Origin: a virus
Strand: one strand, 5' to 3'
DNA: 28,874 nucleotides
IMG/VR virus record: IMGVR_UViG_3300031986_000024
Location: 1-28,874 of that record
Made by a program: the position numbers and the translations under genes. The notes under the pieces were generated by a model. That model was not told the origin of the DNA. It ran no database searches and saw nothing but the letters and a program-made list of their open reading frames with translations. Each line of letters starts with the position of its first letter. The first letter of the stretch is position 1. Below, piece after piece: positions 7,636 through 28,874 of this stretch.

Positions 7636-9115
7636 CTTTGTCCTGCATGCCAAACAGGGCGTGGCGTTCAATACGGAGGCAACTGAAACCTTCTTCGGTG
7701 GCGCGGCAGGCGGCGGCAAGAGCCACCTGATACGGTCGGCGGCAATCACGTGGTGCTCGGAAATCCCCGGCCTTCAGGTCTATCTGTTCCGCCGCATACG
7801 TGACGATCTGGTCAAGAACCACGTTGAGGGCCCGCAGGGCTTTCGCGCCATGCTAGCCGGCTGGGTGGCGTGTGGATTCGTCACCATCGTTGAGGACGAA
7901 ATCAGGTTCTGGAACGGCAGCAAGATCTACCTCTGCCACTGCAAGGATGAGAAGGATCGATTCAAGTACCAGGGCGCCGAAATCCACGTCCTGCTGATCG
8001 ACGAGCTGACGCACTTCACCGACAAGATTTACCGCTTCCTGCGCAACCGCGTCCGCATGGTCGGAATCGAGGTACCGGAAAAATACAAGCGCAGGTTCCC
8101 GCGCATCCTGTGCAGCGGCAATCCGGGCGGCATTGGCCATCAGTTCGTCAAGAGCACGTTCATCGACGGCGCGGTCGAATACAGGATCTACAAGACGCCC
8201 CCGTCCGAGGGCGGCATGCTTCGCCAGTACATCCCGGCCAAACTCGAAGACAATCCGGCCATGAACGACAACGATCCTGGCTATGAGGGTCGTCTTCACG
8301 GCCTTGGGTCCGAAAGCCTTGTCCGCGCGATGCGCTATGGCGACTGGGACATCGTAGAGGGCGCGTATTTCGATAATTTCCGGCGTGAGCGGCACGTCAT
8401 CAAGCCGTTCTCGATCCCGGCGCACTGGATTCGGTTCAGGGCTGGCGACTGGGGCAGTGCAAAGCCATTCGCTTTCGGCTGGTTCGCTGTCGCATCGGAC
8501 GACACCATCGTCGGCCCCGGCGTTGTGATCCCGCGCGGTGCGCTGGTCATGTACCGGGAATGGTATGGGGTGAAGACCAACGCACAGGGCAAGTTCCTTC
8601 CTGACGTGGGCGTGAAGCTCCATGCCGAGGCAGTCGGTGCGGGTGTCCGGCTTCGCGACTTTGACGACGTCATCTCCTATGGCGTTCTCGACCCTGCAGC
8701 CTTCAGCCAGGATGGTGGCCCGTCACTGGCCGAGCGGTTGGCCAAGGGCGAGAACGGCGAAGGAGCGACATTCAAGCGGGCGGACAACAAGCGAACGCCG
8801 GGTCGCGGCGCAATGGGGGGCTGGGACCAGCTTCGAAGTCGCCTGACGGGGGATGAGGATGGCAGGCCGCTGCTGTTCTTCTTCAGCACCTGCATTCATA
8901 CGATTCGAACGCTGCCAGCGCTGCAGCACGACGAAAACAACCCGGAAGACCTCGACACCTCGCAGGAAGATCACGCGGCCGACATGGTCCGCTGCGCCTG
9001 CATGTCCCGCCCGTGGGTCAGCCAGACAGTAACGCAGAGCGCTCCGCCGAAGCCCGGCCACGTGCAATTGCCGATGCCGCCTGAGACCTCGTCCGGTGGA
9101 AGGATCAAGATATGA
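7613..9115 (+). CDS. Terminase large subunit (packaging ATPase-nuclease)
   Basis: 500-residue motor that cuts concatemeric DNA and pumps it into the prohead. The ATPase has Walker A GGAAGGGKS (29-37), Walker B VLLIDE (126-131, with Glu131 catalytic) and a coupling motif SGNPGG (168-173). The RNase H-like nuclease starts at AGDWG with Asp279, and the closing acidic cluster is EDHAADMVR near residue 460. The length matches other large terminases. The start overlaps the small subunit and has only a weak ribosome site, so coupled translation is likely. It ends in a 4-base ATGA overlap with the portal gene. Family is certain; headful versus cohesive-end packaging cannot be read from the sequence, though P22-like neighbours hint at headful. 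Confidence 0.95.
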   Translation: MSQSAALDFVLHAKQGVAFNTEATETFFGGAAGGGKSHLIRSAAITWCSEIPGLQVYLFRRIRDDLVKNHVEGPQGFRAMLAGWVACGFVTIVEDEIRFWNGSKIYLCHCKDEKDRFKYQGAEIHVLLIDELTHFTDKIYRFLRNRVRMVGIEVPEKYKRRFPRILCSGNPGGIGHQFVKSTFIDGAVEYRIYKTPPSEGGMLRQYIPAKLEDNPAMNDNDPGYEGRLHGLGSESLVRAMRYGDWDIVEGAYFDNFRRERHVIKPFSIPAHWIRFRAGDWGSAKPFAFGWFAVASDDTIVGPGVVIPRGALVMYREWYGVKTNAQGKFLPDVGVKLHAEAVGAGVRLRDFDDVISYGVLDPAAFSQDGGPSLAERLAKGENGEGATFKRADNKRTPGRGAMGGWDQLRSRLTGDEDGRPLLFFFSTCIHTIRTLPALQHDENNPEDLDTSQEDHAADMVRCACMSRPWVSQTVTQSAPPKPGHVQLPMPPETSSGGRIKI

Positions 9116-11307
9116 CTGACGACGAGATCGACGCCACTGCCGGCGAGGAAGTCGTGCTTGCGCGCAAACCGAAGTCGTCAAAGGCTTGGCTCGCGCTCAT
9201 CACCAGCCACGACAAGGCCGGCTTCTCCGATTATCAGGAACGCTGCACTAACATCGAAAAGCAGTATGCAAACCTCTCGCGCCTCGCCAGCATCTCGCGC
9301 GACCGCCAGTTTCAGATTTTCTGGGCCAATATCGAGGTTCTGAAGCCCTCGATGTATGCCCGACCGCCCGTTCCGGTGGTGGCGCCCAGGTTCAATGACA
9401 ATCGGCCTATCCCGCGCGCGGCGTCCGAATTGATTGAGCGATCGACAGCGGTGGGTTTCGACCGCGAAGACATCGACAGCGTCATGCGCCAGGTTCGCGA
9501 TGACCTCGCGGTGAATGCGCGCGGGAGTATCTGGGTCCGGTATGAGACCAAGAGCAAGGAAAGCGGACTCACCGAGCGCACGTGCATCGAACATAAGAAC
9601 CGCCGCGACTTTGCCCATGATCCCGCTCGGGAATGGAAGGAAGTCGGCTGGGTGGCTGGCCGTGCTTGGATGACCAAGAAGGAGATGCGCCAGCGTTTCC
9701 TCAAGACATCGGGCAATGCCTATGCAAATGCCGAGTTCGCCAGGCGCAAGGACGACAAGAACAACAGCGACGGCAAGTTCAAGGCCGGTGTCTGGGAAAT
9801 CTGGTCGAAGACCGAAAACAAGGTGGTGTGGGTCACGCCGGGCGTCGACGTAGTCCTCGACGAGGGCGAACCGCACCTGTCGCTCGAAAACTTCTTCCCG
9901 TGCCCGCGTCCCGCTTATGGCACGCTGGAGCCCAACAGCCTCGTTCCGGTGCCGGACTTCCTTTTCTACAAGGACCAGATCGAGGAGGTGAACGAACTCA
10001 CCAACCGCGTGTCTGCACTGACGCAGGCACTGAAGGTGCGCGGCTTCTATCCGTCGGGTGCTGGCGAACTGAGCGATGCCATTGAGGCGGCGGTAAAGTC
10101 GACCGACGAGCGCAAACTGCTCATCCCGGTCAGCAACTGGGCCGCGTTCGGCAATGGATCGGCCAAGGACACGATTGTCTGGCTGCCGCTCGACATGGTG
10201 GTGGCGACCATCACCCAGCTCATCAGTCTGCGAAAGCAGCTGATCGACGACATCTATCAAATCAGCGGTTTGTCCGATGTCATGCGCGGTGCGACCAACC
10301 CGAACGAGACGCTGGGCGCTCAGACGCTGAAATCGCAGTACGGGTCGGTTCGTATTCGTGACCGGCAGAATGAGCTGGTGCGCATTGCGCGCGACACGGC
10401 ACGCATCGTGGCCGAGATCCAGGCCGAGAATTTCCAGAGCAAGACGCTGCTGGAAATGTCGCAGATGGAATTCGAGACCGACGCGAACGTCATGAAGTCG
10501 GTCAAGGCCCTTGAGAATCAGGCCGAGGAGATTGTCAGGGCGGTCCAAGCGGCAAAGCAGGATCCTCGTCTTCAGGAGATGGCGCAGGTCAATCCTGAGC
10601 AGGCGCAGGGGGCATTTCTGCAGGCGCAGCAGCAGGTCGAGCAAATCGCTCAGCAAGTGCAGGAGTTGGAAGACACCATCACCATCGACAAGGTGATGAA
10701 GTTCCTTCGGGATGAGCGCATTCGCCCGTTTGCCCTCGATATCGAGACCGACAGCACCATTCAGCCGGACGAGGATGCAGCCAAGCAGCGAACCTCTGAA
10801 TTCCTGACCGCTCTCGGCGGGGCGCTCGCCCAACTGTCCCCCATGGTGTCATCAAAGCCTGAAACTGCTCCCTTCGCCGGCGAAATCCTGAAGTTCGCCA
10901 TCGCGCCATTTCGCCCCGGTCGGCAGATGCAGTCGGCAATCGACGAGTTCGTCGAGAAGATGAAGGCGTCTGCGGGCCAGCCCCAGCCAAATCCGATGAC
11001 GGCCCAGGCAGAAGCCAATGCAAAGGCCGATTCCGAACGCGCTGCAGTCGAGCAGGGCAAGGCTCAGGCGGCTGTGGCCAAATCCGAAGCCGATATCGCC
11101 CGCATCAATGCCGATGCAGCACTGAAGCAGCGAGAGGCCGACATTCGTATCCGCGAGATCGAGGCCCGTGCGGCGGCCGATGCCCAGAAGCATGAGCAGG
11201 AAATGCAAAAGGGCGAGCTGGAAATCGAGCGCTTGCGCCTTCAGGTCGCTCAGCAGGCTCAGAAGAACGTGGCCAGCGCACCTTTGATGATTGAGGGTAT
11301 CGCATGA
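9112..11307 (+). CDS. Portal protein (P22-like)
   Basis: 731-residue protein forming the dodecameric ring at the packaging vertex; P22's portal is about the same length (725). It is placed between large terminase and scaffold. The first about 560 residues contain the portal core, including the YQISGLSDVMRGATNPNETLGAQ segment (about 380-405), a sequence typical of P22-type portals and rich in Thr/Asn/Gly turns. After about residue 630 there is a long Ala/Glu/Gln/Lys-rich heptad region (MTAQAEANAKADSERAAVEQ onward to about 720), predicted to be a coiled coil and equivalent to the extended barrel of P22 that reaches into the capsid. It overlaps the terminase and the next gene by 4 bases each. 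Confidence 0.9.
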   Translation: MTDDEIDATAGEEVVLARKPKSSKAWLALITSHDKAGFSDYQERCTNIEKQYANLSRLASISRDRQFQIFWANIEVLKPSMYARPPVPVVAPRFNDNRPIPRAASELIERSTAVGFDREDIDSVMRQVRDDLAVNARGSIWVRYETKSKESGLTERTCIEHKNRRDFAHDPAREWKEVGWVAGRAWMTKKEMRQRFLKTSGNAYANAEFARRKDDKNNSDGKFKAGVWEIWSKTENKVVWVTPGVDVVLDEGEPHLSLENFFPCPRPAYGTLEPNSLVPVPDFLFYKDQIEEVNELTNRVSALTQALKVRGFYPSGAGELSDAIEAAVKSTDERKLLIPVSNWAAFGNGSAKDTIVWLPLDMVVATITQLISLRKQLIDDIYQISGLSDVMRGATNPNETLGAQTLKSQYGSVRIRDRQNELVRIARDTARIVAEIQAENFQSKTLLEMSQMEFETDANVMKSVKALENQAEEIVRAVQAAKQDPRLQEMAQVNPEQAQGAFLQAQQQVEQIAQQVQELEDTITIDKVMKFLRDERIRPFALDIETDSTIQPDEDAAKQRTSEFLTALGGALAQLSPMVSSKPETAPFAGEILKFAIAPFRPGRQMQSAIDEFVEKMKASAGQPQPNPMTAQAEANAKADSERAAVEQGKAQAAVAKSEADIARINADAALKQREADIRIREIEARAAADAQKHEQEMQKGELEIERLRLQVAQQAQKNVASAPLMIEGIA

Positions 11308-14410: not shown

Positions 14411-15184
14411 ATGACCTCGAACAACAATCAGACCACTATCGTGTTTCGCGTTCACACGACGCACGACATCACAGCAAGCCAGAAGGCGGGCCGACCCATT
14501 TTTGCCGACGTGGAAGTCTGCGACATCGTGTTCGCGGGCAACACCAAGACCAAGGCGACGTTCCCCGCTCACGAAACCGAGCCCAATGCGACGCGCGAGA
14601 GCATCAAGGCCGGCGGCGGCGTGGTGACGTACGCCATGCTCTACAACGACCAGTATCGAGCATTCAAAGCCGGCTATGCCCAGCCGACAAGCGGGACACC
14701 ACTGGCGGAAGCGCCGTTCCTCGCAGAAGCCAAGCGCCGTGAACTCAAGGCGCTCAACATCCACACGGTCGAAGCATTGGCTGGCCTGGACGGCAACCCG
14801 CTCAAGCAGCTCGGCATGGGCGGACGCGAACTGAAGAACCAGGCGCAGGCCTATCTGGACGCAGCTGCCGGCTCAGCAGATGTCACGTCGCTTGCCGCCG
14901 AGAACTCCACGCTTCGCCAGCAGATGGAAGACATGAGGGCGCAGATGGCTGATCTCATCGCGTACAACAAGGGCGTGACGGGCGGTGTTACTGGCCATCC
15001 GGCCGACCCGAATGTCCCGAAAACGGAACTCGAGCGGGAGGTCGCGGAAGCGTCGACCGACTTCGAGCTGTGGGACGACGACAAGCTCAAGGACTACATC
15101 GCCGAGCACACCGGTTCGCGTCCGCGCGGAAATCCCAGCCACAACACGCTGGTCGCCGCAGCTGCCGAACTCGCGAACGGCTAA
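14411..15184 (+). CDS. Phage virion protein with HhH-like and HeH/LEM-like segments
   Basis: 257 residues. The start at 14411 gives MTSNNNQTT; the longer open frame to 14228 would cross the terminator and overlap the preceding gene. Domain order: a beta-rich N-terminal domain (about 8-95); a helix-hairpin-helix-like stretch (about 104-140: LKALNIHTVEALAGLDGNPLKQLGMGG, then RELKNQAQAYL), a signature seen in rhizobial phages; an Ala/Glu coiled stretch (about 150-180); and a C-terminal helix-loop-helix (DKLKDYIAEHTGSRPRGNPSH...LVAAAAEL) of HeH/LEM or SAP style. Such segments bind DNA or protein. It lies between head and head-tail adaptor genes, so a connector or DNA-end role is possible. Function unknown. 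Confidence 0.65.
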   Translation: MTSNNNQTTIVFRVHTTHDITASQKAGRPIFADVEVCDIVFAGNTKTKATFPAHETEPNATRESIKAGGGVVTYAMLYNDQYRAFKAGYAQPTSGTPLAEAPFLAEAKRRELKALNIHTVEALAGLDGNPLKQLGMGGRELKNQAQAYLDAAAGSADVTSLAAENSTLRQQMEDMRAQMADLIAYNKGVTGGVTGHPADPNVPKTELEREVAEASTDFELWDDDKLKDYIAEHTGSRPRGNPSHNTLVAAAAELANG

Positions 15185-15190
15185 GCGGCC

Positions 15191-15892
15191 ATGAGCATCT
15201 TGAGCGTGATAAAGCAGGTGTGCCCGGTGATCGGGCTCACCGTGCCGGATGCGGTGTTCTCGTCGACTGAACGCGAACACCTCGAATTGCAGGCGCTCGC
15301 CAATGAGATGGCGCAGCGGATTGCCTTCGACACTCGCGACTGGACCCGCCTCAAGGTGCTTGCAGCGATTACCGGTGACGGCGTCGCCACCGGCTTCGAC
15401 TTGCCGACCGACTACAAGCGCATGTTGAAGAAGGCGCGTGTGTGGCCGTCGGCCAGTCCCTACGTCCCTTTCTCGCACGTGCCCGACTCGGACGACTGGC
15501 TCGCGACGACGGTGCAGAACTATCAGAGCATCACCGGTGCCTGGACGTTGATCGGTGAGCAGATCCACATCAAGCCGACAATGGCCAATCTGGCGACGGC
15601 ATCGTTTTTCTACCTGTCCGACAAGGTCGTGAAGGACAAGGACGGCGTCCCGAAAGTCGAGTTTTCCGCCGACGATGACGTTTTCCGCCTCGATGAGCGT
15701 GTTCTGAAGCTCGGTATGATTTGGCAGTGGAAGGCTAACAAGGGCCAGGCCTACGCCGAGGACATGGTGAACTACGAGGACGCCCTTGCCGTTTCCAGTG
15801 GTGCAGACAAGGGCTCGAATATCCTCGCCGTGGGCCAGCCTCGCCCTTCGGCCAATGCCGATTGCGCATTTCCCGGGGCGATAACGCCATGA
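15191..15892 (+). CDS. Head-tail adaptor (gp4-like) protein
   Basis: 233 residues. The N-terminal helices with EREHLELQALANEMAQRIAFD and DWTRLKVLAAITGDG, then FDLPTDYKRMLKKARVW, fit the adaptor (gp4-type) proteins that seat under the portal in P22-like podophages and start the tail. The segment 105-165 (SITGAWTLIGEQIHIKP, then SFFYLSDKVV) is beta-rich, as in that family. Its 3' end overlaps the next gene by four bases (ATGA at 15889). The ribosome site is weak. Known family: P22 gp4 is somewhat shorter (166 residues). The match is by pattern and gene order. Confidence 0.65.
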   Translation: MSILSVIKQVCPVIGLTVPDAVFSSTEREHLELQALANEMAQRIAFDTRDWTRLKVLAAITGDGVATGFDLPTDYKRMLKKARVWPSASPYVPFSHVPDSDDWLATTVQNYQSITGAWTLIGEQIHIKPTMANLATASFFYLSDKVVKDKDGVPKVEFSADDDVFRLDERVLKLGMIWQWKANKGQAYAEDMVNYEDALAVSSGADKGSNILAVGQPRPSANADCAFPGAITP

Positions 15893-17941: not shown

Positions 17942-18914
17942 TCCGAAGGAAACTTCGGCGGCATCGACCGGCACCAATATCTCGACCGCCATTGCGAATT
18001 CCTGGCTGAACAACGCCAATCAGGTCACGCCCGATGGGACGATCACCTATACGAAGACCGGCGAAGAGCAGATCACCGATCCGTACACGGGCAAGACGTA
18101 CACGATCCCGAAAACGACGGTTACGACGCAGCTTTCCGCCGCGCAGCAGGCCATCAAGGACCAGACAGACAAGGCCCAGCTGAATCTTGGCACGCTCGCC
18201 AACAATCAGTCGTCGTTCCTGAACGAATACATGTCCAAGCCGTTCGACGGCTCCAATGAGGCGGTCGAGTCTCGACTGATGGAGCTAGGCCGGAAGCGGC
18301 TCGATCCGCTCATTGCCCAGCAGCAGGACCAGCTTGCAACGCGGTTGGCTAACCAGGGCATAATGCCCGGATCGGCGGCTTATGATCGGGCAATTGCGCG
18401 GCAGGGGCTGACGGCCAATGACGCCTATAATCAGTTGCTGTTGACCGGTCGAGGTCAGGCCTTTTCCGAAGCCCAGGCCGTACGCAACCAGCCGATCAAC
18501 GAGATTACGGCGCTGCTTTCGGGCTCGCAGGTGGCGGCACCACAGGCCCAAGGTCACAACGGCAGCACCATCCCGACGACAGACAATGCCGGGCTGATCA
18601 ACGAAAACTACAATCAGAAAATGAACGCCTATAACCAGCAGGTTGCCCAGAACGGCAGTCTGATGGGCGGGCTGTTCGGTGGCATCGGCAAGCTTCTAAC
18701 GCTGTCGGACAAGCGGGCCAAGACCGACATTGAAAAGGTCGGCAAGACCGACGACGGCCAGCCCATCTATGCCTATCGCTACAAGGCTGGCGGACCGATG
18801 CAGCTGGGCCTGATGGCTCAGGATGTCGAAGAGAAGCACCCCGACGCGGTATTCGATACCCCGAGGGGCTTCAAGGCCGTGGATTACCGCAAAGCACTGT
18901 CGCTGGGAGCATAA
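17910..18914 (+). CDS. Ejection/tail protein with C-terminal S74 chaperone domain
   Basis: 334 residues; the ATG at 17910 has GAGGAAA just upstream. Residues 1-60 are Pro/Thr-rich; 75-200 are helical and Gln/Asn/Ala-rich, like an internal virion protein; GGLFGGIGKLL (253-262) is a short glycine-zipper that could touch membrane. The last about 70 residues (SDKRAKTDIEKVG, IYAYRYKAGG, LGLMAQDVEEKHPDAV, VDYRKALSL) match the peptidase S74 / endosialidase chaperone, with the putative cleavage Ser266. S74 domains fold a trimeric fibre and then cut themselves off. It is unusual to find one on a short helical protein next to ejection proteins, but related phages show this layout. Could be a trimeric tail component rather than an ejected protein. 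Confidence 0.75.
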   Translation: MGKPKAPTPPDPKETSAASTGTNISTAIANSWLNNANQVTPDGTITYTKTGEEQITDPYTGKTYTIPKTTVTTQLSAAQQAIKDQTDKAQLNLGTLANNQSSFLNEYMSKPFDGSNEAVESRLMELGRKRLDPLIAQQQDQLATRLANQGIMPGSAAYDRAIARQGLTANDAYNQLLLTGRGQAFSEAQAVRNQPINEITALLSGSQVAAPQAQGHNGSTIPTTDNAGLINENYNQKMNAYNQQVAQNGSLMGGLFGGIGKLLTLSDKRAKTDIEKVGKTDDGQPIYAYRYKAGGPMQLGLMAQDVEEKHPDAVFDTPRGFKAVDYRKALSLGA

Positions 18915-18917
18915 TCA

Positions 18918-21422
18918 ATGGCTCTATCCTTCATTTTTGACGCCTCCAAAGAAACGCCGGCCAGCCTAGCGAAGAAGCGAGCCGTGGCGGATGCGCTCGC
19001 CAGCCGCAATCAGGTTCCGCGCAATGTCGGAGAAGGCATCAGTGCCTTGGCTGATGGTGTCGTCGCCGCGGTGCTCGGAAGCCGTGCCGATGCCGGGGAA
19101 AAGGCTGGTCGTGAACATGCTGCCACGACCATGGCGCAGACACTGGGCGCCGGCATGTTCCCCGATGCTCCGACTTCCAAGCCAAGCGCGTCCACGTCGT
19201 CTGCTCCGGTTGACTACAAGGGCGACGAAATCGCTTGGACCGATGCGAAGCCCTATCAAAAGGCGCTGCTGAATACGATTGCCGGGCCGGAAAGTGGCGG
19301 CCGGTACGATATTATCTATGGCGGTGGGAGGTTTGACGACTTTTCGAGGCATCCGGGCCGGGCAGTTCGGATCCAGACCGGGCCGAACGCCGGCCGCACG
19401 TCGTCTGCTGCCGGCAAGTACCAGTTCCTCGGTTCGACGTGGGATGATCAGGCCGGCAAGCTCGGGCTCGCGGATTTCTCCCCGGCCAATCAGGATCAGG
19501 CCGCCTGGAACCTCGCAGCAGAGACTTACAAGACCAAGACGGGTCAAGACTTGGTTGCTGTGCTGGAGTCTGGCGACCCGGCAGCGCTGGCAACCGTTGG
19601 CAAGGTTCTCAATCCGATCTGGACGAGCTTGCCGGGCGGCATCGAGCAGGGCACGAACACCGACAGGTTTGTCGCTACCTATCAGCGCGCGCTCAGTGCC
19701 GGCGCCTTACCTGCTCAGGCAAAGCAGGTTGCTCAGCAGGAACAGGCGCAGCCCGTTCAGGTCGCGTCGCTCGATCCGTCCGCAGGTATTGCACAGGCCA
19801 CCGCACGCCCGATGCCTGAGGAGTATGCAAACATCGGCCTGTCGCAGGATGCTTGGGCCGGTATGAACGCGCCGACGGGTGGGACGCCTGCAGCTGCCAC
19901 GGAATTGCCCGCAGCACCGCAGAATGGCGCTCCGCAAGGGGCCGGTTCGCCGGGAGAGATCCGCAAAGGGCCCGACGGTCAGTCCTACCAGTATGCGGAA
20001 ACCACTGGCATGGCTGGCGCGTCGGGTTCGCAGGGCTGGATCAGGGTGAATGCCCCCCAAGGCGCTCAGTCCGTTGCTGCAGCAACCACACCTGCCGCTC
20101 AGAGGGTGCTCAGCGCCATGATGAGCCAAGAACCGATGGGCGGGGCACCTGCTCCTTTGTCAGCCTCAGGAGCCTATCCGCAGGTGACAGGGGCGCTCGC
20201 AAAGGCGGCAGCTGACAGCGAGATGCCTGTCGACACTCCGGGCACACAACGAGTTGCCCAAGCTCTCGGTGGCGGCGCAGAAGCCTATCGAGGCACGGCC
20301 ATAGACAGCGACATGCCTGGCCACGAACCGCTTCCGCCCGGCGAGGCTGGGCCGTCCATTCAGCAGCTGATGCAAGCCGCGTCCGATCCATGGTTGAACG
20401 AACAGCAGCGCGCGCTGGTCAACACGATGCTTGAGCAGAAAATGCAGTCTGCCGATCCTATCCGCCGCCTTCAAATCCAAAAGCTGCAGAAGGAATTGGG
20501 CACGCCTCATAAGCAGTGGCAGAAGCTCGACGACAACACGCTGTTCGACCCTGCAACGGGTGAAACCAAGAGTATCGGCAAGATTGGTGCCGGCGCATTC
20601 CGGTTTCAGGGCAATTCGGTCGAGGCTCAGTCGCTCAATGGGCTGATGGACAGTGGTGCGCTGACGCCCGAGCAGGCTCAGCAGCTCGGCGCCGGCAAGA
20701 CAGTGACGGGCCCGAACGGCGAAACCATCTTCATGACGCCTCAGGGTGTATTCGGACAGACTTCGCCCGGCGGCCCTGCCATGCCGATCACGCCGCAGGC
20801 TACACCAGCGCCGGCACCATTGAACCCGGCTGCCCCGACCCCGGCGCCGGCACCAACGACCGTCCCCGCACCCGCCCAGCCGCAGCGCCCGGGTATGATC
20901 CCGATCACCGACGCGAAGCCGGTTCGGGCGACCGAGGCCCAGCGGAATCGCACGTCAAATGTCGACCAGGCTTTCACCACGATCACCAATGAACTCGACC
21001 GTTACGAGAAGCTCGTCAGCGAGACCGGCATCGAGGCGAAGCCGGGGCAGGCGAAGGACAACCTCAATACGGTCCGCCAAGGAATCATGCTTCAGATGAA
21101 GGAGCTGTTTAACCTTGGCGTGCTGAACGGGCCCGATCTCTCGCTCATGGAACGCATGATCTATGACCCGGTAGTCGACCCCTTGAAGGAAGGCGGGATT
21201 GCAAACCTGCCTGATCAGCTCTGGACCGGAGTGACGGGCGGAGCCGGCGAGCGGGCCAAGAACAGCGTGGCGGAGCTGAAGCGCATGCTCGGCAACATCA
21301 AGAGTTCAGTCGATAGCTCTGTCGATAAGCAGACCCCGACACCTGACGGCACGACCGCCCCGGCTGCTCCAGGCGAGTGGAAGGTATTACCGAACGGCGT
21401 CAAGATCAGGGTGAAGCCATAA
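18918..21422 (+). CDS. Internal virion/ejection protein with lysozyme domain
   Basis: 834 residues. The N-terminal about 75 residues are helical. Residues about 105-255 are a lysozyme-like muramidase of GH104 type (lambda R-like): PESGGRYDIIYGGGRF with likely catalytic Glu125, HPGRAVRIQTGP, SAAGKYQFLGSTWDDQAGKLGL and LNPIWTSLPGG. It would open the peptidoglycan for the tail or ejected proteins to cross. A long Ala/Gln/Pro region follows, with two pseudo-repeats (AADSEMPVDTPG and AIDSDMPGHEPL around 438 and 460) and a Pro-Ala linker (about 630-660). The C-terminal 170 residues are helical. It is separated from the S74 gene by only 3 bases and has a GGGAG site. Length and layout resemble the ejected lysozyme proteins of T7/P22-type phages. 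Confidence 0.8.
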   Translation: MALSFIFDASKETPASLAKKRAVADALASRNQVPRNVGEGISALADGVVAAVLGSRADAGEKAGREHAATTMAQTLGAGMFPDAPTSKPSASTSSAPVDYKGDEIAWTDAKPYQKALLNTIAGPESGGRYDIIYGGGRFDDFSRHPGRAVRIQTGPNAGRTSSAAGKYQFLGSTWDDQAGKLGLADFSPANQDQAAWNLAAETYKTKTGQDLVAVLESGDPAALATVGKVLNPIWTSLPGGIEQGTNTDRFVATYQRALSAGALPAQAKQVAQQEQAQPVQVASLDPSAGIAQATARPMPEEYANIGLSQDAWAGMNAPTGGTPAAATELPAAPQNGAPQGAGSPGEIRKGPDGQSYQYAETTGMAGASGSQGWIRVNAPQGAQSVAAATTPAAQRVLSAMMSQEPMGGAPAPLSASGAYPQVTGALAKAAADSEMPVDTPGTQRVAQALGGGAEAYRGTAIDSDMPGHEPLPPGEAGPSIQQLMQAASDPWLNEQQRALVNTMLEQKMQSADPIRRLQIQKLQKELGTPHKQWQKLDDNTLFDPATGETKSIGKIGAGAFRFQGNSVEAQSLNGLMDSGALTPEQAQQLGAGKTVTGPNGETIFMTPQGVFGQTSPGGPAMPITPQATPAPAPLNPAAPTPAPAPTTVPAPAQPQRPGMIPITDAKPVRATEAQRNRTSNVDQAFTTITNELDRYEKLVSETGIEAKPGQAKDNLNTVRQGIMLQMKELFNLGVLNGPDLSLMERMIYDPVVDPLKEGGIANLPDQLWTGVTGGAGERAKNSVAELKRMLGNIKSSVDSSVDKQTPTPDGTTAPAAPGEWKVLPNGVKIRVKP

Positions 21423-23464
21423 TGCCCCTATTTGAGATCCAAGGCCCTGACGGCAAAACCTACGAGATCGATGCTCCCGACGAAAATTCGGCGCTGGGGG
21501 CAATCGGTCAGATGGAACAGCCTGCCGCTGGGCCCAGCGCTCAGCCGCTTCATCCGGAATTCGACCCGGACAACGTGCCGAGCGGCGTTCCCGGCTACAA
21601 CACGAGCACCGGCCTCATCGAGGGCGATGATGCCCTGAGCAAGTTCAGGACAGCGTCGGGTGGCATGCTTGAGGGCATTCCAATCGCCGGCCCCCTGATC
21701 CGCAGCGGTGTGGATCGCGCGGCCGCGGCAACGCTCGCGCCCTTCTCCGAGAAAGACTATGGGGAAATCCTCAAGGTCATCCAGGCCGGAACAGAGGCTG
21801 AAAAGTCGATGAACCCGAAGCTGGACACTGCCGCTCAAGTCACCGGTGCGGTTGCTGGCACGATTCCGATGATTGCCGCGGCCCCGGGGGCTTTCGGCAT
21901 TGGCCAGGCAACCCGCGTAGGTCAGGTCGTCGGCGCCACACTCGGCGGTGGTGGTCTCGGTAGCGGTGATGCCTTTGTGCGCTCCGGTGGTGATCTCGAT
22001 GAAACGCTGAAAGGCGGTCTCTGGGGGGCGGGGAGCGGCGGGCTTGGCACTTATGCAGCGCCTTGGATTGGCAAAGGTGTCAAGAAGGTCGCCGACGCCC
22101 TGCTTACTGGTCGTCTCGCCAAATCTACAGGAGTCGACAAGCAGGCATTCAACCTCCTGGCCAAAGGAATGGAGCGCGACGGCCTTGACGCAGCATCTGC
22201 AAACGCACGCCTTGCCGAACTTGGACCGGATGCAATGGTGCTGGATCTCGGACCCAACCTGAAGCACCAAGCGGCAGCGCTCGCCGCCATGCCCGGGGAG
22301 GGGCAGAAGGTCGTTCGCGGGGCTATCGAGGGCCGAGACGCAGCCGCAAACCGCCGGATCATCGATGAAGTAGAAAACCAGCTTGGCCCAGCGCCCATTC
22401 CGCGTCGGGTATCGGCGGAAATCGAGGGAAATCAGGGACTGCTGTCGCCGCAGTACCGTGAAGTTTTCCAGAATGCTTCGCCCGTCGACACGAGCCGCAT
22501 TGCCCAGTACCTGGATCGGGAAATTCAGACCCTTCGGGGCGAGGCACAGCGCGGTCTGCAGCGTGTTCGCTCGATGTTGAACCGTGTCGGCACTGAGCAG
22601 CTGGAAACCAACCCGGTGACACTGCTGGAGACGCGCAAAGCCATCGACGGCATGCTTGAGACCGTACAGGAAACGAATGCCCGCAATGCGTTGACGACGG
22701 CACGCCAGGCGGTCGACGATCAGTTGCGAGCATCGGTACCTGGCATCAAGGAAGTCGATGCGAAGTATGCCGAACTCGCTCGGCAGAACACGGCCTTGCA
22801 GCGTGGTCAGACCGTTCTGGCCAATGGCCGCGAAGCCCCGCGACCGCACGAACTGGCGGATGAGTTCACTCAGGGCGCCTTGCCCCAAGGCGAGCAGATC
22901 GGCCCGTCGGCCGTTCCGGTGCGGCTACGCGAAGGCGCCCGCGCAGAAATAGAGCGCATCATCGGCACCAACGCCAATGACCGTGTCGCGCTTCAACGGC
23001 TCATCAAGGGCGAAGGCGACTGGAACCGCGACCGGCTTGCGACCCTGTTCGGACAGGATAGGGCTGACCGCATCATTCGCCTGCTCGATAATGAGCGCGC
23101 TTTCGCCGATACGTCGCAGATCGTCACTCGAAACAGCGAAAGCCTTGCCCGGCGCGAAGCCATCAATGACCTGACTGGCCAGACGGGCGCCGACTTCGGT
23201 GTTGTCGACAGCTTCAAGGCCGGCGGGGTAGGTGGCGCCACCAGAGCAGCGGGCATCAAGAGCCTGGAGAAGGTCGTCGAAGCGCTGCAGGGTGTGAAAA
23301 CTGAGGCTGCACGAAAGCAGATGGCCGAAACCCTGACAAGCAACAACACCGAAGTGGTTGATACGCTGTTGAAGGCCGCGAAAGGCTCAAACCTCGATCC
23401 GTCACAGATCGATAGAGTTTCGCGGGCTCTGCTGCTCACGACGGTTGGCGGTATTGGCCGCTGA
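21422..23464 (+). CDS. Internal virion/ejection protein, large helical
   Basis: 680 residues. The start at 21422 sits in TAATG with the previous stop, and gives MPLFEIQGPDGKTYEIDAPD; this short N-terminal motif is seen on many podophage internal proteins. After it comes a hydrophobic, Gly/Ala-rich part (about 85-215, with GAVAGTIPMIAAAPGAFGIG and TLGGGGLGSGDAF) that could form membrane-active segments, and then a long charged helical part (about 230-670). The pair with the lysozyme-bearing protein upstream matches the two- or three-protein DNA-ejection apparatus of podophages (compare P22 gp16/gp20). It carries no enzyme motif I recognise. The 3' end overlaps a minus-strand gene by 63 bases. 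Confidence 0.75.
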   Translation: MPLFEIQGPDGKTYEIDAPDENSALGAIGQMEQPAAGPSAQPLHPEFDPDNVPSGVPGYNTSTGLIEGDDALSKFRTASGGMLEGIPIAGPLIRSGVDRAAAATLAPFSEKDYGEILKVIQAGTEAEKSMNPKLDTAAQVTGAVAGTIPMIAAAPGAFGIGQATRVGQVVGATLGGGGLGSGDAFVRSGGDLDETLKGGLWGAGSGGLGTYAAPWIGKGVKKVADALLTGRLAKSTGVDKQAFNLLAKGMERDGLDAASANARLAELGPDAMVLDLGPNLKHQAAALAAMPGEGQKVVRGAIEGRDAAANRRIIDEVENQLGPAPIPRRVSAEIEGNQGLLSPQYREVFQNASPVDTSRIAQYLDREIQTLRGEAQRGLQRVRSMLNRVGTEQLETNPVTLLETRKAIDGMLETVQETNARNALTTARQAVDDQLRASVPGIKEVDAKYAELARQNTALQRGQTVLANGREAPRPHELADEFTQGALPQGEQIGPSAVPVRLREGARAEIERIIGTNANDRVALQRLIKGEGDWNRDRLATLFGQDRADRIIRLLDNERAFADTSQIVTRNSESLARREAINDLTGQTGADFGVVDSFKAGGVGGATRAAGIKSLEKVVEALQGVKTEAARKQMAETLTSNNTEVVDTLLKAAKGSNLDPSQIDRVSRALLLTTVGGIGR

Positions 23465-23644
23465 CCGGTCTTCGCGTGCAGCCAAGTAGATCAGCAGCCC
23501 GAAGAAGCTGCCGCCAAATATTGCCCCGTAGATGAAATCTCGGCTCATCGCGTCGAGAAACCTATCGAAGCCAATGCCGAACGTCACCATCAACGCGATG
23601 GTGACTGCTGCAGCGATCAATTGAACGACAATCCGGTAGCTCAT
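23402..23644 (-). CDS. Small two-helix membrane protein
   Basis: 80 residues from the ATG at 23644, with two clear membrane helices: about 5-25 (IVVQLIAAAVTIALMVTFGIG) and 36-57 (FIYGAIFGGSFFGLLIYLAA), and a charged tail (REDRSAANTANRREQQ). A TTG 36 bases further upstream (23680) has a better ribosome site (GAGGCGG) and would add 12 basic residues, so the start is uncertain. It opposes the late operon and its 3' end overlaps the ejection gene by 63 bases. It could be a holin, a superinfection-exclusion protein or a membrane moron; inverted orientation disfavours holin. Function unknown. Confidence 0.6.
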   Translation of the reverse strand: MSYRIVVQLIAAAVTIALMVTFGIGFDRFLDAMSRDFIYGAIFGGSFFGLLIYLAAREDRSAANTANRREQQSPRNSIDL

Positions 23645-23713
23645 GCGCCGGAAAGTAAACTCAGCCCGCCGTTTCGACAATAGGCCGCCTCAGGAGACAG
23701 CCATTGCTTAGTG

Positions 23714-23980
23714 CTACTGCTTTAAGCCCCCAGCGGGCTGCTTCGCCGCCTCAATCAGGTCTGCTTGGCGAATAAGGCCTTCCGCGATTTTTCGTGCCTG
23801 GTGGGGCTTTATCAGAAGCTCCACGCTTTCAGCCGTAGTCTCTCCGCGACGAACCTGCTCGATGTGCTCCTGAGATGTCACGTATTCCAGACGCACAATA
23901 AGATTTCCGGGCGCCAGCGCGTTGATGTGCACATTGATTAGGTTCGGTGTGTTGGTCGTGTTCTCGAATTTTGCAGGCAT
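23714..23980 (-). CDS. Small hypothetical protein, minus strand
   Basis: 88 residues, no recognised family. MPAKFENTTNTPNLINVHINALAPGNLIVRLEYV reads as beta-strands, followed by helical VELLIKPHQARKIAEGLIRQADLIEAAKQ. I chose the ATG at 23980, with GGAAGGA 7 bases upstream; the ATG at 23986 would sit against that site. A longer open frame to 24205 contains no better start. It is transcribed away from the tail-fibre gene and towards the membrane-protein gene, with which it may form a two-gene unit. Function is unknown. Confidence 0.65.
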   Translation of the reverse strand: MPAKFENTTNTPNLINVHINALAPGNLIVRLEYVTSQEHIEQVRRGETTAESVELLIKPHQARKIAEGLIRQADLIEAAKQPAGGLKQ

Positions 23981-24035
23981 AGGCATTCCTTCCGAATCTC
24001 GGGGATCATGCCGCCGCACCCACCAAGAGTCCATC

Positions 24036-24057
24036 AGCCGCCTCGAGCGGCTTTTTT
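24036..24057 (+). terminator. Intrinsic terminator just before the tail-fibre gene
   Basis: AGCCGC (24036-24041), loop CTCGA (24042-24046), GCGGCT (24047-24052), then a run of six T (24052-24057). It would stop plus-strand read-through from the late operon just 15 bases before the fibre start, so the fibre may depend on antitermination or its own promoter, though the hairpin could instead control the fibre leader. It lies upstream of the minus-strand gene and cannot terminate that gene's own mRNA. Confidence 0.75.
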
Positions 24058-24072
24058 CATGGAGAATTGCCG

Positions 24073-25098
24073 ATGCCCCGTAACGGCTCAGGTGTGATGT
24101 CTTGGCCTCCAAACACCAATGGCGTGCCAGGCACAACGGTGTCGAGCACCAGATACAATGCATTTCTCGCTGATCTGCTGACGGATCTGAACGCCGCACG
24201 CCCAATCACTGCGGGCGGTACCGGCGGCACGTCGGCGGTCTCGGGCAATGACGGGCTCAACACCACGTCGACGGACATGGCGTCTGCGGCCACGCTTAAC
24301 CTGGCCAACGCCACGGGCATCATCGTCAATGTCACCGGTACGACGACCATCACCGCGCTCGGCACGGTTAGTTCGGGGGCGATCCGCACGCTGATCTTTG
24401 CGGCCGCGCTCACACTGACGCATCACGCCACCAGCCTCATTCTCCCGGGGGGCGCGAACATCACCTCCGCGGCCGGCGACGCGGCAACGTTCCGTTCGAA
24501 GGGGGCTGGCAACTGGGTCTGCGTCAACTACCAGCGGTCGAATGGGCACGCCGTCTCCAACACCCTCGACAGCCCAACGATCAATACGCCCATGTTGACT
24601 TTCAGACAGGGCGCGACTGCGACACCAACAGCAGAGGGCGCAGTCGAGTGGGACACTGACGACAACGTTCTGGCAATCGGCGACGGAGCGGCCACGAAGC
24701 TTTTCGTGCCTATCCCGGCTTCAACTGCTGCTGGCGACATCGAGTATTTCGACGGTGCCAAGTCCAAGGCACGGCTGGCAAAGGGCACTGCCGGGCAGGC
24801 GCTGGTTATGAACGGCGGCGCGACCGCTCCGATATGGCAGACCTTAAACTACGGTGCAGGGGTGGCGGCTATTGTGCCAGGGGCAATCGGATCGATGATG
24901 TTTGCTAACTACACCGGCGCGGTCGCGCCTGTCGCTTACGGGGGGGCGGTGGCAGGCTCTACGCTGCAACCTGTAGGTCTGTCCGCCGTGGGTGACGACT
25001 TTCCTGAGGGAGCTTCCCCTTCGGGAACGTGGGTACTTCTAGGCGCGATAACTTCGCCAGTCGCTCCGCGCAATACCTTGTTCCAGAGGATTTCGTGA
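24073..25098 (+). CDS. Tail fibre protein
   Basis: 341 residues; the ATG at 24073 has GGAGA 7 bases upstream. The N-terminus (MSWPPNTNGVPGTTVSSTRYNAFLADLLTDLNAARPITAGGTGGT) is a well-known podophage-fibre anchor pattern. The chain is Thr/Ala/Gly-rich and beta-strand-like (VTGTTTITALGTV, SLILPGGANITS), with a C-terminal tip resembling other fibres (GTWVLLGAITSPVAPRNTLF). It would bind the host receptor, probably a surface polysaccharide, so it should be the fastest-evolving structural gene. A tail-fibre assembly gene follows with a 1-base TGATG overlap. The family is recognisable; its precise receptor is not. Confidence 0.85.
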   Translation: MPRNGSGVMSWPPNTNGVPGTTVSSTRYNAFLADLLTDLNAARPITAGGTGGTSAVSGNDGLNTTSTDMASAATLNLANATGIIVNVTGTTTITALGTVSSGAIRTLIFAAALTLTHHATSLILPGGANITSAAGDAATFRSKGAGNWVCVNYQRSNGHAVSNTLDSPTINTPMLTFRQGATATPTAEGAVEWDTDDNVLAIGDGAATKLFVPIPASTAAGDIEYFDGAKSKARLAKGTAGQALVMNGGATAPIWQTLNYGAGVAAIVPGAIGSMMFANYTGAVAPVAYGGAVAGSTLQPVGLSAVGDDFPEGASPSGTWVLLGAITSPVAPRNTLFQRIS

Positions 25099-25541
25099 TG
25101 GAATACCGCAACGCAACCTACAATGCGCACGGCACAATCGATGTCGAGATTGAGCATCCTGTGTTCGGCTGGATACCGTTTACAGCCTCGCCTGATGACT
25201 CCGAGGAATTTGGGCGAGAACTGTTTGCAGAGGTCAATCTCGGCGAGGCTGGGCCATACTTGGTACCGCCGCCGATCGTAGAAGACTACACAGCGGCTAT
25301 CGTCTCAATGCTCGATGCCAAGGCGAAGGAACGCCGCTACGACAACGCGATGTCCCTCGCGACATACGAGAAAAGCACTGATCCGCAATGGTCAGCCGAA
25401 GCTACGGCGTTCATCGCATGGCGCGACGCAGTGTGGGCTTACGCTTACGCCGAACTCAAAAAGGTCGAACTGGAACAGCGCTCGCAACCGACCGTTGAAG
25501 GGTTCTTGGCCGAGCTCCCGGTCATGAGCTGGCCCACCTAA
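25098..25541 (+). CDS. Tail-fibre assembly/chaperone-like protein
   Basis: 147 residues; the ATG at 25098 overlaps the fibre stop (TGATG), with an AGAGGA site upstream inside the fibre gene. The second half (AAIVSMLDAKAKERRYDNAMSLATYEKS, then WSAEATAFIAWRDAVWAYAYAELKKV, then FLAELPVMSWP) matches the DUF4376-like / fibre-assembly family found behind tail-fibre genes. Such proteins help fold and attach fibres; some remain on the tip. The first half is beta-rich and may contact the fibre. Being next to the fibre supports the role; the exact action is inferred. Confidence 0.75.
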   Translation: MEYRNATYNAHGTIDVEIEHPVFGWIPFTASPDDSEEFGRELFAEVNLGEAGPYLVPPPIVEDYTAAIVSMLDAKAKERRYDNAMSLATYEKSTDPQWSAEATAFIAWRDAVWAYAYAELKKVELEQRSQPTVEGFLAELPVMSWPT

Positions 25542-25630: not shown

Positions 25631-26266
25631 ATGCGACTACTAGATTTCTTTTTCGGGAAGAGTAACGGCGAAAGCTTCCGGTCTGGCGATTATTGGGATC
25701 AGCGATATCGCAACGGAGGCACTTCTGGCGCAGGCTCCTATGGCCGATTAGCTGAATTTAAGGCCGAAGTTCTGAACGCTTTCGTTGCTGAACACCGCAT
25801 TCAGACTGTCGTAGAGCACGGCTGCGGCGACGGGGCGCAACTGGAGTTGGCCCGGTACCCCAACTATCTCGGGCTCGACGTATCGCCTACCATCGTAGAG
25901 GTCTGCCAGAAACGGTTTGAGAGCGACCCGTCGAAGCAGTTTCGCTTATCGGGATCCGAGGAAACCGGCACCCACGATCTGGCCCTATCTCTGGACGTTA
26001 TCTACCACCTCGTAGAAGACGCTGTTTATCAGGAATACATGGGTGGGCTGCTCGGCTCATCGCACCGATACCTCGCGGTCTATGCGAGCAACTACGACAA
26101 GCTGACCAAGGATGAGCACGTCAGGCATCGGCGGTTCTCAGACATGATTGATGCGACGGGCCAGTGGAACCAGGTCAAGCACGTTCCCAATCGATACCCG
26201 CTTGAGCGGCGCAATAAGAGGGAAACCAGTTTTGCTGATTTCTACTTCTTCGAGCGCGTAAACTAG
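25631..26266 (+). CDS. Class I SAM-dependent methyltransferase
   Basis: 211 residues; I chose the ATG at 25631, preceded by a GGGGG purine run. The S-adenosylmethionine-binding glycine-rich loop VVEHGCGDG lies at 60-68, with the acidic strand end Asp83 (LGLDVS) that would hold the ribose, then a helix (PTIVEVCQKRF) and the LALSLDVIYHLVED loop near residue 118. The N-terminus (YWDQRYRNGG) resembles small-molecule/sugar methyltransferases rather than DNA ones, and no DPPY-like DNA-methylase motif is visible. It ends by converging on, and overlapping by 3-4 bases, the acyltransferase gene. The likely substrate is a cell-surface sugar or a small molecule, so together they may alter the host surface. 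Confidence 0.85.
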   Translation: MRLLDFFFGKSNGESFRSGDYWDQRYRNGGTSGAGSYGRLAEFKAEVLNAFVAEHRIQTVVEHGCGDGAQLELARYPNYLGLDVSPTIVEVCQKRFESDPSKQFRLSGSEETGTHDLALSLDVIYHLVEDAVYQEYMGGLLGSSHRYLAVYASNYDKLTKDEHVRHRRFSDMIDATGQWNQVKHVPNRYPLERRNKRETSFADFYFFERVN

Positions 26267-28254
26267 CGGCGTTCAATCGCCTGCTCGAACATAGGCACGA
26301 GCAAGTGAGCCCCGGCCCGCGTCAGATGGTTGTAATCTGCATAGAGGACCACACCATCGCGCACGACCTCGCACTTGAGACCGGGGCACAGGATGGTGTC
26401 CGGCGTCATCAATAGAGCCCCGTATTTCTTGGCAAGCCGGGTCACTTCGGCAGTGCTTCGCTGCTGGCGCTGATCGTATGCTTTCCGAGTGGGTGCGATG
26501 TCTATTTCTCGGCCAAGGATTGCCGCCCTTCCCAATGTGGACGGAACGGGGAAGCCCACTTCGGGGACAGTCGTCATCAAGATCAGTGAGGGGACCATAG
26601 GGCGCAACCTGGCCAGGGTTGCGTCTAGACCGGCAGCAACAACCTCGAAATTGCCCTCGGGGGCAAAAACAGGCGCGGGGCCTTTCCGTTCATAACGCGA
26701 ACCTTCGAAATAATACGGCCAACGCGCGACCATGATAACCAGTTCCGGCTTGATGGTTGCTAAGGCTTGGAGCGCCTTGTCGGCAAACTCGGCACACGGC
26801 CATGCCGGCCGGTCTATCCGCTCGATGCTTACGATGGGGACGCATCCGCCGCGACCGAAAAGGTAGCCCGCCTTGCCGCCTCGCGCCAAAGCCGCATCAA
26901 GGGCTGGGGCTGCTGCTTCACCGTGGGAGTCGCCCCAAAGGATCACAGTTGGCTGAACGTTTGGATCACCTAGGCGACAAATCATGCTGCGACGGACATT
27001 TGCGAGATGAGCGAGCCGCTGGTCGGCTTCCGCGAGTTTGCGCATGCTACAGCGCTCTGAAGGCATGCCCGACCGGACAGCCTCCTTGTTGGTCATCGCG
27101 GCGACATCATCCGGTAGGCGCCAAGCCGCACCCTTTGACTGATCTGCGACAAGGGCAACCGCGAGCAAGGCCGCGAAACCACCAAAAAGCGGAGTGATGC
27201 CAGTCCTGTTGACTGGGCGCCGGAATGGCCTTTCGACGAACCGATAGGAAAGCCACGCCGCCACAAAGGCGAGTGCAACGATAGCGGCCGCCTCGATCGG
27301 TAGGAGGGGGCGGATGGCGATGTAGGCGCCGAACGACAGAAGGGGCCAATGCCATAGATACAGGGAATAGGAGATTAGCCCGATGCCGACCATCGGCGCT
27401 GTCGACAGCCCGCGATTTAGTGTGGCCTGAGGCCCAGCGTAGATCAGGAGAGCAGCACCCAGGCTCGGGATCGCAGCATTCCAACCCGGGAACGTAGATG
27501 CGCTCGACAGCCCCCACAGGGCTGCAGCAATAAGCGCGCCACCGATGAGGGAACACACATCGGCCGCTCGGTGGCTCAAGGTCGGGAGGGTGCCCACGGC
27601 CAAGAAGGAACCGATCAACAGTTCCCATGCCCGATATTGGGCGAGGAAGAATGCAGCCTCTGGATTGGTGATCACGGCAACACAACCTGCGGCAAAGGAG
27701 ACCGCAAGCCCGATCACGATCCCCGCGGTTCGAAGCTTCCACTTCGACAGCAGCACGAGTGCCAGGGGGAAGAAAACGTAGAACTGCTCTTCGACCGACA
27801 GCGACCAGATATGAAGCAGGGGCAGCACTTCATCTGATGCGGCGAAGTAGCCGGACTCCTTGAAGAAGAAGATGTTGGCGTAGATCAGGAGTGAGGCCAC
27901 CAGGCTTTCGCCGAACAGCTCGAAATCGTTCGGGACGTAGAGTAGCGCGGCACCGATGGCCGAAACAGCGCAGACGACAAGAAACGCGGGGACGATGCGC
28001 CGCAGTCGGCGCTCATAAAACCGCCATGTGCTGTAGGTCCCGGCGTCGATCTCGCGAGCGATGATGCCGGTGATCAGATAGCCCGAAATCACGAAAAAGA
28101 TGTCGACGCCGACGAACCCGCCAGGCACGAGCCCAGGGAATGCGTGGAACAAAACGACTGCTAGGACAGCAACAGCTCGCAGTCCATCGATGTCGGCCCG
28201 ATAGCCGTGCGCCACGATGCTGCTTGTTGCCGGCGCCAGTTCTCGGCGGTTCAT
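26263..28254 (-). CDS. OafA-type membrane acyltransferase with SGNH domain
   Basis: About 663 residues from the ATG at 28254 (a TTG at 28269 is in frame, but a GGGG run lies 9 bases before the ATG). The N-terminal about 370 residues are an acyltransferase-3 membrane domain: YRADIDGLRAVAVLAVVLFH with the family's RxxxGLR-like start, GVDIFFVISGYL, SVEEQFYVFFP, and about ten hydrophobic helices. From about 430 comes a periplasmic SGNH hydrolase-like domain, with GDSH (about 441-444) holding the nucleophilic Ser, and DYNHL (about 640-644) holding Asp640 and His643. Such fusions O-acetylate O-antigen or exopolysaccharide. On the minus strand, it opposes the methyltransferase. It is a strong lysogenic-conversion candidate: it could change the phage receptor and block superinfection. 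Confidence 0.93.
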   Translation of the reverse strand: MNRRELAPATSSIVAHGYRADIDGLRAVAVLAVVLFHAFPGLVPGGFVGVDIFFVISGYLITGIIAREIDAGTYSTWRFYERRLRRIVPAFLVVCAVSAIGAALLYVPNDFELFGESLVASLLIYANIFFFKESGYFAASDEVLPLLHIWSLSVEEQFYVFFPLALVLLSKWKLRTAGIVIGLAVSFAAGCVAVITNPEAAFFLAQYRAWELLIGSFLAVGTLPTLSHRAADVCSLIGGALIAAALWGLSSASTFPGWNAAIPSLGAALLIYAGPQATLNRGLSTAPMVGIGLISYSLYLWHWPLLSFGAYIAIRPLLPIEAAAIVALAFVAAWLSYRFVERPFRRPVNRTGITPLFGGFAALLAVALVADQSKGAAWRLPDDVAAMTNKEAVRSGMPSERCSMRKLAEADQRLAHLANVRRSMICRLGDPNVQPTVILWGDSHGEAAAPALDAALARGGKAGYLFGRGGCVPIVSIERIDRPAWPCAEFADKALQALATIKPELVIMVARWPYYFEGSRYERKGPAPVFAPEGNFEVVAAGLDATLARLRPMVPSLILMTTVPEVGFPVPSTLGRAAILGREIDIAPTRKAYDQRQQRSTAEVTRLAKKYGALLMTPDTILCPGLKCEVVRDGVVLYADYNHLTRAGAHLLVPMFEQAIERR

Positions 28255-28379
28255 AGAAAAGATCCCCAAAGTCCGCCGGTTCTTCGCACACGCCTATCTG
28301 ATCATCAACCGTCCTCGAACGTCGCATGGCCCGCCCCCTGCGGGAATGACGGCGGCTGACACCCACAATGGAGCATCAC

Positions 28380-28874
28380 ATGGACCGCAATTTCGCGCGG
28401 GCGCTTTCGCTCGTCCTAAAACATGAGGGTGGCTGGTCAGATCACCCGGCCGATCCAGGCGGCGCCACCATGAAGGGCGTCACGCTCGCGAACTTTCGCC
28501 GATACGTGAAGCCGAACGCGACCAAGGACGATCTGCGCGAGATCACCAATGAGCAGGTGGCCTCGGTCTATAGGCGCTTCTACTGGGATGCGGTGCATGG
28601 CGCCGAGCTTCCCGACGGGGTCGACTATGCCGTGTTCGACTTCGCGGTGAACAGCGGGCCCGGCAGGGCAGCCAGGTACCTGCAGGGTATCGTTGGTGTT
28701 GCCCAGGACGGCAAGATCGGGCCGGCCACGCTGGCCGCGGTTCGAGCCAAGCCGCATGCCGCGGTCATCCATGATCTCTGCGACCGCCGCATGGCCTTCC
28801 TACGCGGCCTGAAGACCTTCGGCACCTTCGGCAAGGGCTGGTCCTCTCGCGTCGCTGGTGTCCGTTCCGAGGCG
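28380..28874 (+). CDS. Endolysin, GH108-type muramidase (3' end missing)
   Basis: N-terminal 165 residues of a lysis enzyme, cut by the window edge. It has the glycoside hydrolase 108 pattern: a leading helix then LKHEGGWSDHPADPGGATMKGVTL, with likely catalytic Glu16 in HEGGW; FYWDAVHGAELPDGVDYAVFDFAVNSG; and AARYLQGIVGVAQDGKIGPAT, the peptidoglycan-binding helix of the family. The ATG at 28380 has a GGAG six bases upstream. It would cut the glycan strands at the end of infection. No signal peptide is visible, so a holin is needed to release it, and none was identified nearby. It continues in frame to the last base with no stop. Confidence 0.92.
   Translation, partial: MDRNFARALSLVLKHEGGWSDHPADPGGATMKGVTLANFRRYVKPNATKDDLREITNEQVASVYRRFYWDAVHGAELPDGVDYAVFDFAVNSGPGRAARYLQGIVGVAQDGKIGPATLAAVRAKPHAAVIHDLCDRRMAFLRGLKTFGTFGKGWSSRVAGVRSEA

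Follow-up and report, generated by a model that had tools for sequence, protein, structure and literature searches.

Phage-borne O-acetylation is described to change phage sensitivity in several Gram-negative hosts, and superinfection is covered in the same source (PMC13123978). In the AT3 family of acyltransferases, the motifs R/K-X10-H and RxxR are described as essential, and the Salmonella LPS acetyltransferase whose periplasmic domain has been solved (PDB 6SE1) is named OafB (PMC9558356). As for rhizobia, Sinorhizobium meliloti isolates in which a stretch of pSymB including the rkp-3 region was replaced are described to have a changed K-antigen profile and to resist phages, and a figure of that paper includes methyltransferase and glycosyltransferase genes in the rkp-3 region (PMC5429615). 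In addition, a different family of rhizobial temperate phages has been described (PMC8631192). This paper deals with a methyltransferase (MT) gene and an acyltransferase gene of a temperate phage, which, with a probability of about 0.65, form a lysogenic-conversion (moron) cassette that would O-methylate and O-acetylate a surface polysaccharide.

The window, that is, the whole stretch of DNA analyzed, is an IMG/VR virus record of 28,874 bases with both ends cut, and the integrase gene is at its first base (Table 1). The phage is regarded as temperate because this virus record carries, together with the integrase gene, genes for an Sf6-like small terminase, a large terminase, portal, capsid and tail. 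Among named phages, Rhizobium phage RHph_I3_18 comes closest (52.7% identity in the portal and 53.2% in the capsid), and the next nearest over the portal (26–41%) are Microcystis, Bradyrhizobium, Ruegeria, Stenotrophomonas and Myxococcus Mx8-type phages. The host is probably rhizobial, as judged only from RHph_I3_18, and the large protein encoded at 21419–23464 is absent from the three bacterial genomes searched for the host. The 834-aa tail protein encoded just before it, with an endolysin- or metallo-endopeptidase-like stretch, is probably a virion protein that opens the cell wall.

Table 1. Positions of the features discussed, in the window and in other records
Record	Feature	Position	Strand	Basis or remark
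Window	Tyrosine integrase	1..1176	+	PF00589, 1.6e-20
Window	834-aa tail protein	18918..21422	+	Endolysin/metallo-endopeptidase-like stretch, residues ~108–281
Window	Large protein used for the scan of related loci	21419..23464		
Window	Small hydrophobic-looking protein	23402..23680	-	
Window	ORF upstream of the fibre	23714..24205	-	Inside stretch ~23697–24036
Window	Tail fibre	24067..25098	+	phrog_24210, 1.1e-11
Window	Fibre-assembly/fibre-associated protein	25029..25541	+	phrog_4628/1141
Window	Class I SAM-dependent MT, predicted polysaccharide-cluster subfamily, 211 aa	25631..26266	+	
Window	CTAG, stop codons common to both convergent genes	26263..26266		
Window	AT3-SGNH (OafA/OafB-type) acyltransferase, 663 aa	26263..28254	-	
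Window	Endolysin, cut off by contig end, downstream border of slot	28368..28874	+	Homology to relatives' intact lysins
L005	Conserved slot protein	15134..15883	-	
L018	Conserved slot protein	15021..15800	-	
L053	Conserved slot protein	15100..15891	-	No Pfam match
L018	AT3-SGNH past the endolysin	18406..20622	+	
L031	Resolvase/invertase-like serine recombinase ORF	14641..15168	-	By eye
L138	MT subfamily fused to heparinase II/III-like domain	6998..9307	+	S. meliloti AK76 pSymB

Both genes lie where the first-pass annotation had placed them, and their overlapping stop codons were also read correctly there, because the shared bases CTAG give TAG on each strand. Such a four-base tail-to-tail overlap is unremarkable by itself, and a similar one, with other genes involved, is found in the relatives L002 and L003. 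The same annotation put the pair between fibre and endolysin genes; both flanks were found, but a fibre-assembly-like ORF separates the fibre from the MT. This ORF overlaps the fibre gene and its true start is probably near the fibre stop, and the C-terminal domain of its product is common to L002, L003, L031, L222 and further viral loci. Between the gene of the large protein and the fibre, a small hydrophobic-looking protein is encoded, and ORFs resembling it occupy the equal position in several relatives (L002, L003, L011 and L013); it is perhaps a second moron, maybe an exclusion protein. Furthermore, the stretch of about 23697–24036 has no counterpart in L002 and L003, which makes it one more insertion immediately before the fibre; the ORF in it gave no PADLOC match.

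The acyltransferase is, by its sequence, an ordinary member of the known OafA/OafB-type family. It consists of an N-terminal AT3 domain (PF01757, 2e-29) and a C-terminal SGNH domain (PF19040, 1e-47) and matches PHROG 6705, “O-antigen acetylase” (1.3e-144). The AT3 motifs are present as R26-X10-H37 and R83-x-x-R86, and the SGNH motifs as G441-D-S443-H and D640-x-x-H643. In an alignment of 29 sequences, namely 27 of the 80 viral loci fetched, the window and L018, the residues R26/H37, R83/R86, S443 and H643 are invariant, D640 is nearly invariant and six cysteines are conserved. The top PDB fold match of the AlphaFold model (pLDDT 87.6) is 6SE1 (rank 1, E 1.4e-6, TM (target) 0.66), so that Pfam domains, catalytic residues and fold agree with the OafA-type assignment made at first pass. 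As for transmembrane segments, 11 are expected; simple hydropathy gave 8, and in the model, residue 372 is preceded by many long helices, which are not membrane-assigned. By tblastn, 68 of 50,697 phage records match the acyltransferase, all below 60% identity and just one covering at least 80% of the query, and the matches include the O-antigen acetylases of D3/PMG1 and Oac-like proteins of Salmonella phages. PADLOC gave no match to the enzyme.

The MT matches Pfam Methyltransf_11 with 23.3 bits (E 1e-4), just above the cut-off of 21.2, and its model (pLDDT 92.5) has the class I fold. The model has 911 PDB matches at E ≤ 0.001; nearly all of the 50 listed are SAM methyltransferases, including NodS, which acts on chitooligosaccharide, and none of those listed names a specific substrate. 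A reading of the MT as a DNA methyltransferase or defence enzyme was considered and is unsupported, since PADLOC gave no match and the fold matches do not point there. Relatives are absent from the annotated phage collection (50,697 records), and a scan of viral contigs with the single MT sequence gave none; an alignment query of the viral contigs gave 32. Across 50 homologues, 20 columns are invariant.

In bacteria, relatives are found in polysaccharide contexts. Matches occur in 13 of 72,556 plasmid records, among them Sinorhizobium rkp-3-type capsule clusters on pSymB and its equivalents. Of the seven plasmid neighbourhoods read, four are capsule-type clusters of Sinorhizobium that encode an RkpR-like export protein together with several glycosyltransferases; these genes are annotated in L137 and L140 and were recognized by eye from ORF similarity in L136 and L141. 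An annotated FkbM methyltransferase is near the MT relative in L137 and L140. A glycosyltransferase adjoins the relative in Pantoea (L135) and two are nearby in Priestia (L139). On pSymB of S. meliloti AK76, a fusion joins the subfamily with a heparinase II/III-like domain. At least 478 relatives were obtained by a scan of genomes, and the neighbourhoods of the best 80 were counted by taking the nearest ORF of 120–900 aa within 600 bases on each side (133 ORFs) and, as controls, 119 ORFs from these loci at a distance of 5.5 kb or more. Glycos_transf_1 occurs in 23 of the 133 neighbours versus 2 of the 119 distant ORFs (Fisher p 2.4e-5) and Polysacc_synt in five neighbours; Glycos_transf_2 is not enriched (14/133 versus 9/119, p 0.51), which counts against the conversion reading. 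Moreover, relatives occur within large proteins with GT8/GT2 domains (L161, L201, L220 and L195, the GT2 matches in L195 and L220 falling below the curated cut-off), and in five of the 80 loci (L145, L155, L172, L206 and L213), the sequence fetched also encodes an AT3 protein. In the Bradyrhizobium loci L155 and L145, MT, flippase-like, glycosyltransferase and AT3-SGNH genes lie within about 6 kb, and these look like exopolysaccharide clusters when the ORF translations are read by eye. The MT of the window appears to belong to a subfamily of polysaccharide clusters, and the capsule-cluster relatives, fusions, Glycos_transf_1 enrichment and Bradyrhizobium clusters bear out the earlier suggestion that a polysaccharide is the likely substrate of both enzymes.

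The region between fibre and endolysin, called the slot hereafter, was compared among relatives. A scan with the large protein gave 53 related loci, and because 13 of them have the window's endolysin type, there are, with the window and RHph_I3_18, 15 comparable phages. Nine of these carry a sugar-active or MT gene in the slot, in six arrangements: MT and AT3-SGNH (the window); an FkbM-type MT (L002 and L003); GT4, a hexapeptide acyltransferase and one protein without assigned function (L005, L006 and L053); GT8, a hexapeptide acyltransferase and one protein without assigned function, with an AT3-SGNH gene beyond the endolysin (L018); AT3 and a class I MT (L029); and a Methyltransf_23 MT of 335 aa (RHph_I3_18). 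L002/L003 and L005/L006/L053 are near copies, so they are not independent, and one representative of near copies was scanned for slot content. In the remaining six (L007, L009, L011, L012, L013 and L051), no recognized enzyme was found in the slot, L011 and L013 holding further ORFs beyond those scanned one by one; this also counts against the conversion reading. Thus, the fibre-adjacent position, from which receptor modification had been suggested at first pass, recurs for sugar-modifying genes. In L031, where the window's endolysin type was not found, AT3 follows the fibre-assembly gene directly, and a serine recombinase-like ORF adjoins this AT3 gene. The slot protein conserved in L005, L018 and L053 has no Pfam match (L053 copy scanned), and its opening looks, by eye, like a GT-A type glycosyltransferase. 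The AT3-SGNH gene of L018 past the endolysin is additional to the GT8 and hexapeptide acyltransferase genes of its slot. When 47 of the 53 records were searched for five sugar/MT Pfam families, 12 matches were obtained, eight in the slot, one just past the endolysin (L018) and three elsewhere (L025, about 39 kb away; L032 and L042, about 8 and 7 kb downstream, respectively).

The fibre-assembly domain is found in at least 130 viral loci, and among the best 80 examined, an MT, glycosyltransferase or AT3 gene lies within 100 bases after the fibre-assembly gene in 15 (11 distinct), unrelated phages included. Of these enzyme genes, 13 run against the direction of the fibre genes, an orientation which, the AT3 gene of the window included, would suit expression apart from the late genes. 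Among the 15, L254, L295, L298 and L299 are the same records as L222, L031, L002 and L003, respectively, L278 is a weak Pfam match (E 0.007), and the near copies L270, L283 and L284 depend on an L270 match below the curated cut-off; L282 was left out, having no match. L283 and L284 (of the scanned L270), L299 (L298 is L002, and L003 was scanned) and L310 (of the scanned L309) were counted as near copies. Whether the type of fibre-assembly gene marks the cargo was also considered: one type was always followed by a sugar enzyme or MT in the five loci seen first, but this was rejected by the 15 of 80 in the wider scan, and RHph_I3_18 pairs the other type with a methyltransferase.

The N-terminal ~255 residues of the fibre are conserved in close relatives and the tip is unique; in blocks of 40 residues, identity to L002 is 85–90% (62% in one block) and drops to 38, 30 and 17% at the tip. 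Between the window and L002/L003, nucleotide homology is lost inside the fibre gene (24830) and regained inside the endolysin gene (28380, 82% identity); within this gap, just the final part of the fibre-assembly gene is homologous (67–69%). Likewise, L005 and L018 lose homology inside the fibre gene at 13238 and regain it at 14546, past the first sugar gene (84%). Because homology ends in the fibre and resumes afterwards in these two pairs, the tip and the adjacent sugar gene differ jointly while both sides are kept. Tips also vary without cargo (window/L007 and L007/L051), and the window's own tip matches only L010 and, weakly, L280. A strict linkage of tip and cargo was rejected, since L222 and L002/L003 have one tip family (42% identical) with different cargo, L222 having the window's MT.

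From domains, catalytic residues, the temperate phage, the slot and the context of relatives, all read from the sequence, we infer the substrates, acetyl as the acyl group, expression in the prophage and the effect on adsorption as follows. The AT3 domain would carry an acyl group through the inner membrane, acetyl from acetyl-CoA being the most likely one, and hand it to the periplasmic SGNH domain, which would O-acylate a surface polysaccharide (O-antigen, capsule/K-antigen or exopolysaccharide) of the probably rhizobial host. The MT would act in the cytoplasm and O-methylate a sugar of this polysaccharide or of a different one, either while the polymer is assembled or afterwards. With the sugar coat altered, competing phages, perhaps including those of the same kind as this one, would probably adsorb differently, and the modified polysaccharide is possibly the receptor of this phage. 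That the pair would modify the sugar coat is well supported by homology and context. On the other side, the pair is not conserved as such, L222 having the MT without AT3. In regard to expression, neither gene was found to have, beyond chance level, a sigma-70-type promoter or a terminator by which it would form a unit of its own (one promoter-like site versus 1.1 expected), although the consensus may not fit rhizobial promoters. Relative to the late genes, the AT3 gene lies antisense and the MT gene co-directional, so that lytic-phase expression of the latter is possible.

Other explanations concern either the meaning of the position or the substrate. The fibre tip through the cargo may be one hypervariable island between conserved borders, in which neighbours are linked only passively; the loss and regain of homology at the island borders in two pairs and the variation of tips where cargo is absent would fit this, but the cargo is restricted in kind, the five sugar/MT families having eight of their 12 matches in the slot lineage-wide; this explanation is doubtful. 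The pair may instead serve the lysogen by altering a surface polysaccharide (in root colonization, in evading recognition by plants or protists, or in relation to other phages) regardless of the phage's own receptor, as the loose linkage of the L222 and L002/L003 tips to cargo and the six slots without such enzymes would allow. However, the position directly after fibre and fibre-assembly genes recurs even in unrelated phages (15 of 80 loci), and this explanation is rather unlikely.

With respect to substrate, the acyltransferase could O-acetylate peptidoglycan and shield the lysogen from endolysins, the neighbouring endolysin being its functional partner. OatA is likewise an AT3-SGNH protein (PMC9558356), and the gene does adjoin the endolysin; but the PHROG match is an O-antigen acetylase, the best fold match is an LPS acetyltransferase and the slots of relatives hold glycosyltransferases and FkbM-type MTs, making such a role highly improbable. 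It is scarcely more credible that the MT has no connection with the acyltransferase and modifies nucleic acid or protein: the generic class I fold and the Pfam score barely above cut-off leave room for this, but the homologues in capsule clusters, fused to glycosyltransferases and a heparinase-like domain or adjoining Glycos_transf_1 genes, and the lack of a PADLOC match speak for a glycan. Conversion of a surface polysaccharide is preferred here.

Going further, it may be conjectured, tentatively and with odds well against it, that temperate phages, foremost those of Rhizobiales, carry a lock-changing cassette in which tip, fibre-assembly protein and exchangeable glycan-modifying enzymes (O-acyl, O-methyl and glycosyl) are swapped together, so that receptor recognition and later receptor alteration in the lysogen evolve as one unit, the window having a double O-methyl/O-acetyl mark. 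As related phages fill the slot with different sugar-modifying enzymes, it lends itself well to testing whether a virus, once inside, changes the lock. If the slot couples receptor binding to receptor alteration, its cargo would predict both the polysaccharide recognized by the prophage's fibre and the phages excluded by the lysogen. Moreover, rhizobial surface polysaccharides also matter for symbiosis, and lysogeny could therefore alter nodulation as well as phage sensitivity.

Compared with known systems, the window enzyme resembles phage O-antigen acetylases (D3 ORF28/PMG1 and Salmonella phage Oac) in AT3 domain, catalytic residues and temperate carriers, and bacterial OafA/OafB in having an SGNH domain, but it is only 30.6–41.1% identical to the phage enzymes (40 phage matches listed) and is paired with a methyltransferase. 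The MT resembles those of Sinorhizobium rkp-3 (K-antigen/capsule) clusters (43.8–46.8% identity over 92–94% of the length), although it is phage-borne and outside a polysaccharide operon, and the bacterial genes themselves have only an inferred function. RHph_I3_18 has the same order of fibre, fibre-assembly gene, methyltransferase and endolysin, but its MT is the Methyltransf_23 type, its fibre-assembly gene is of a different type and there is no AT3 gene. The IMG/VR phage L222 carries an MT 75% identical to the window's directly after a fibre-assembly gene 59% identical, while in the 16.6 kb fetched no other window protein is matched and no AT3 was found. No description of the slot was found in the literature searched by title and opening of the abstract, and an earlier one may exist. 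Each enzyme is of a known kind, and what appears to be new is the pair, the presence of this MT subfamily in a phage as compared with the annotated phage collection, and a slot that recurs and whose sugar-modifying cargo is interchangeable.
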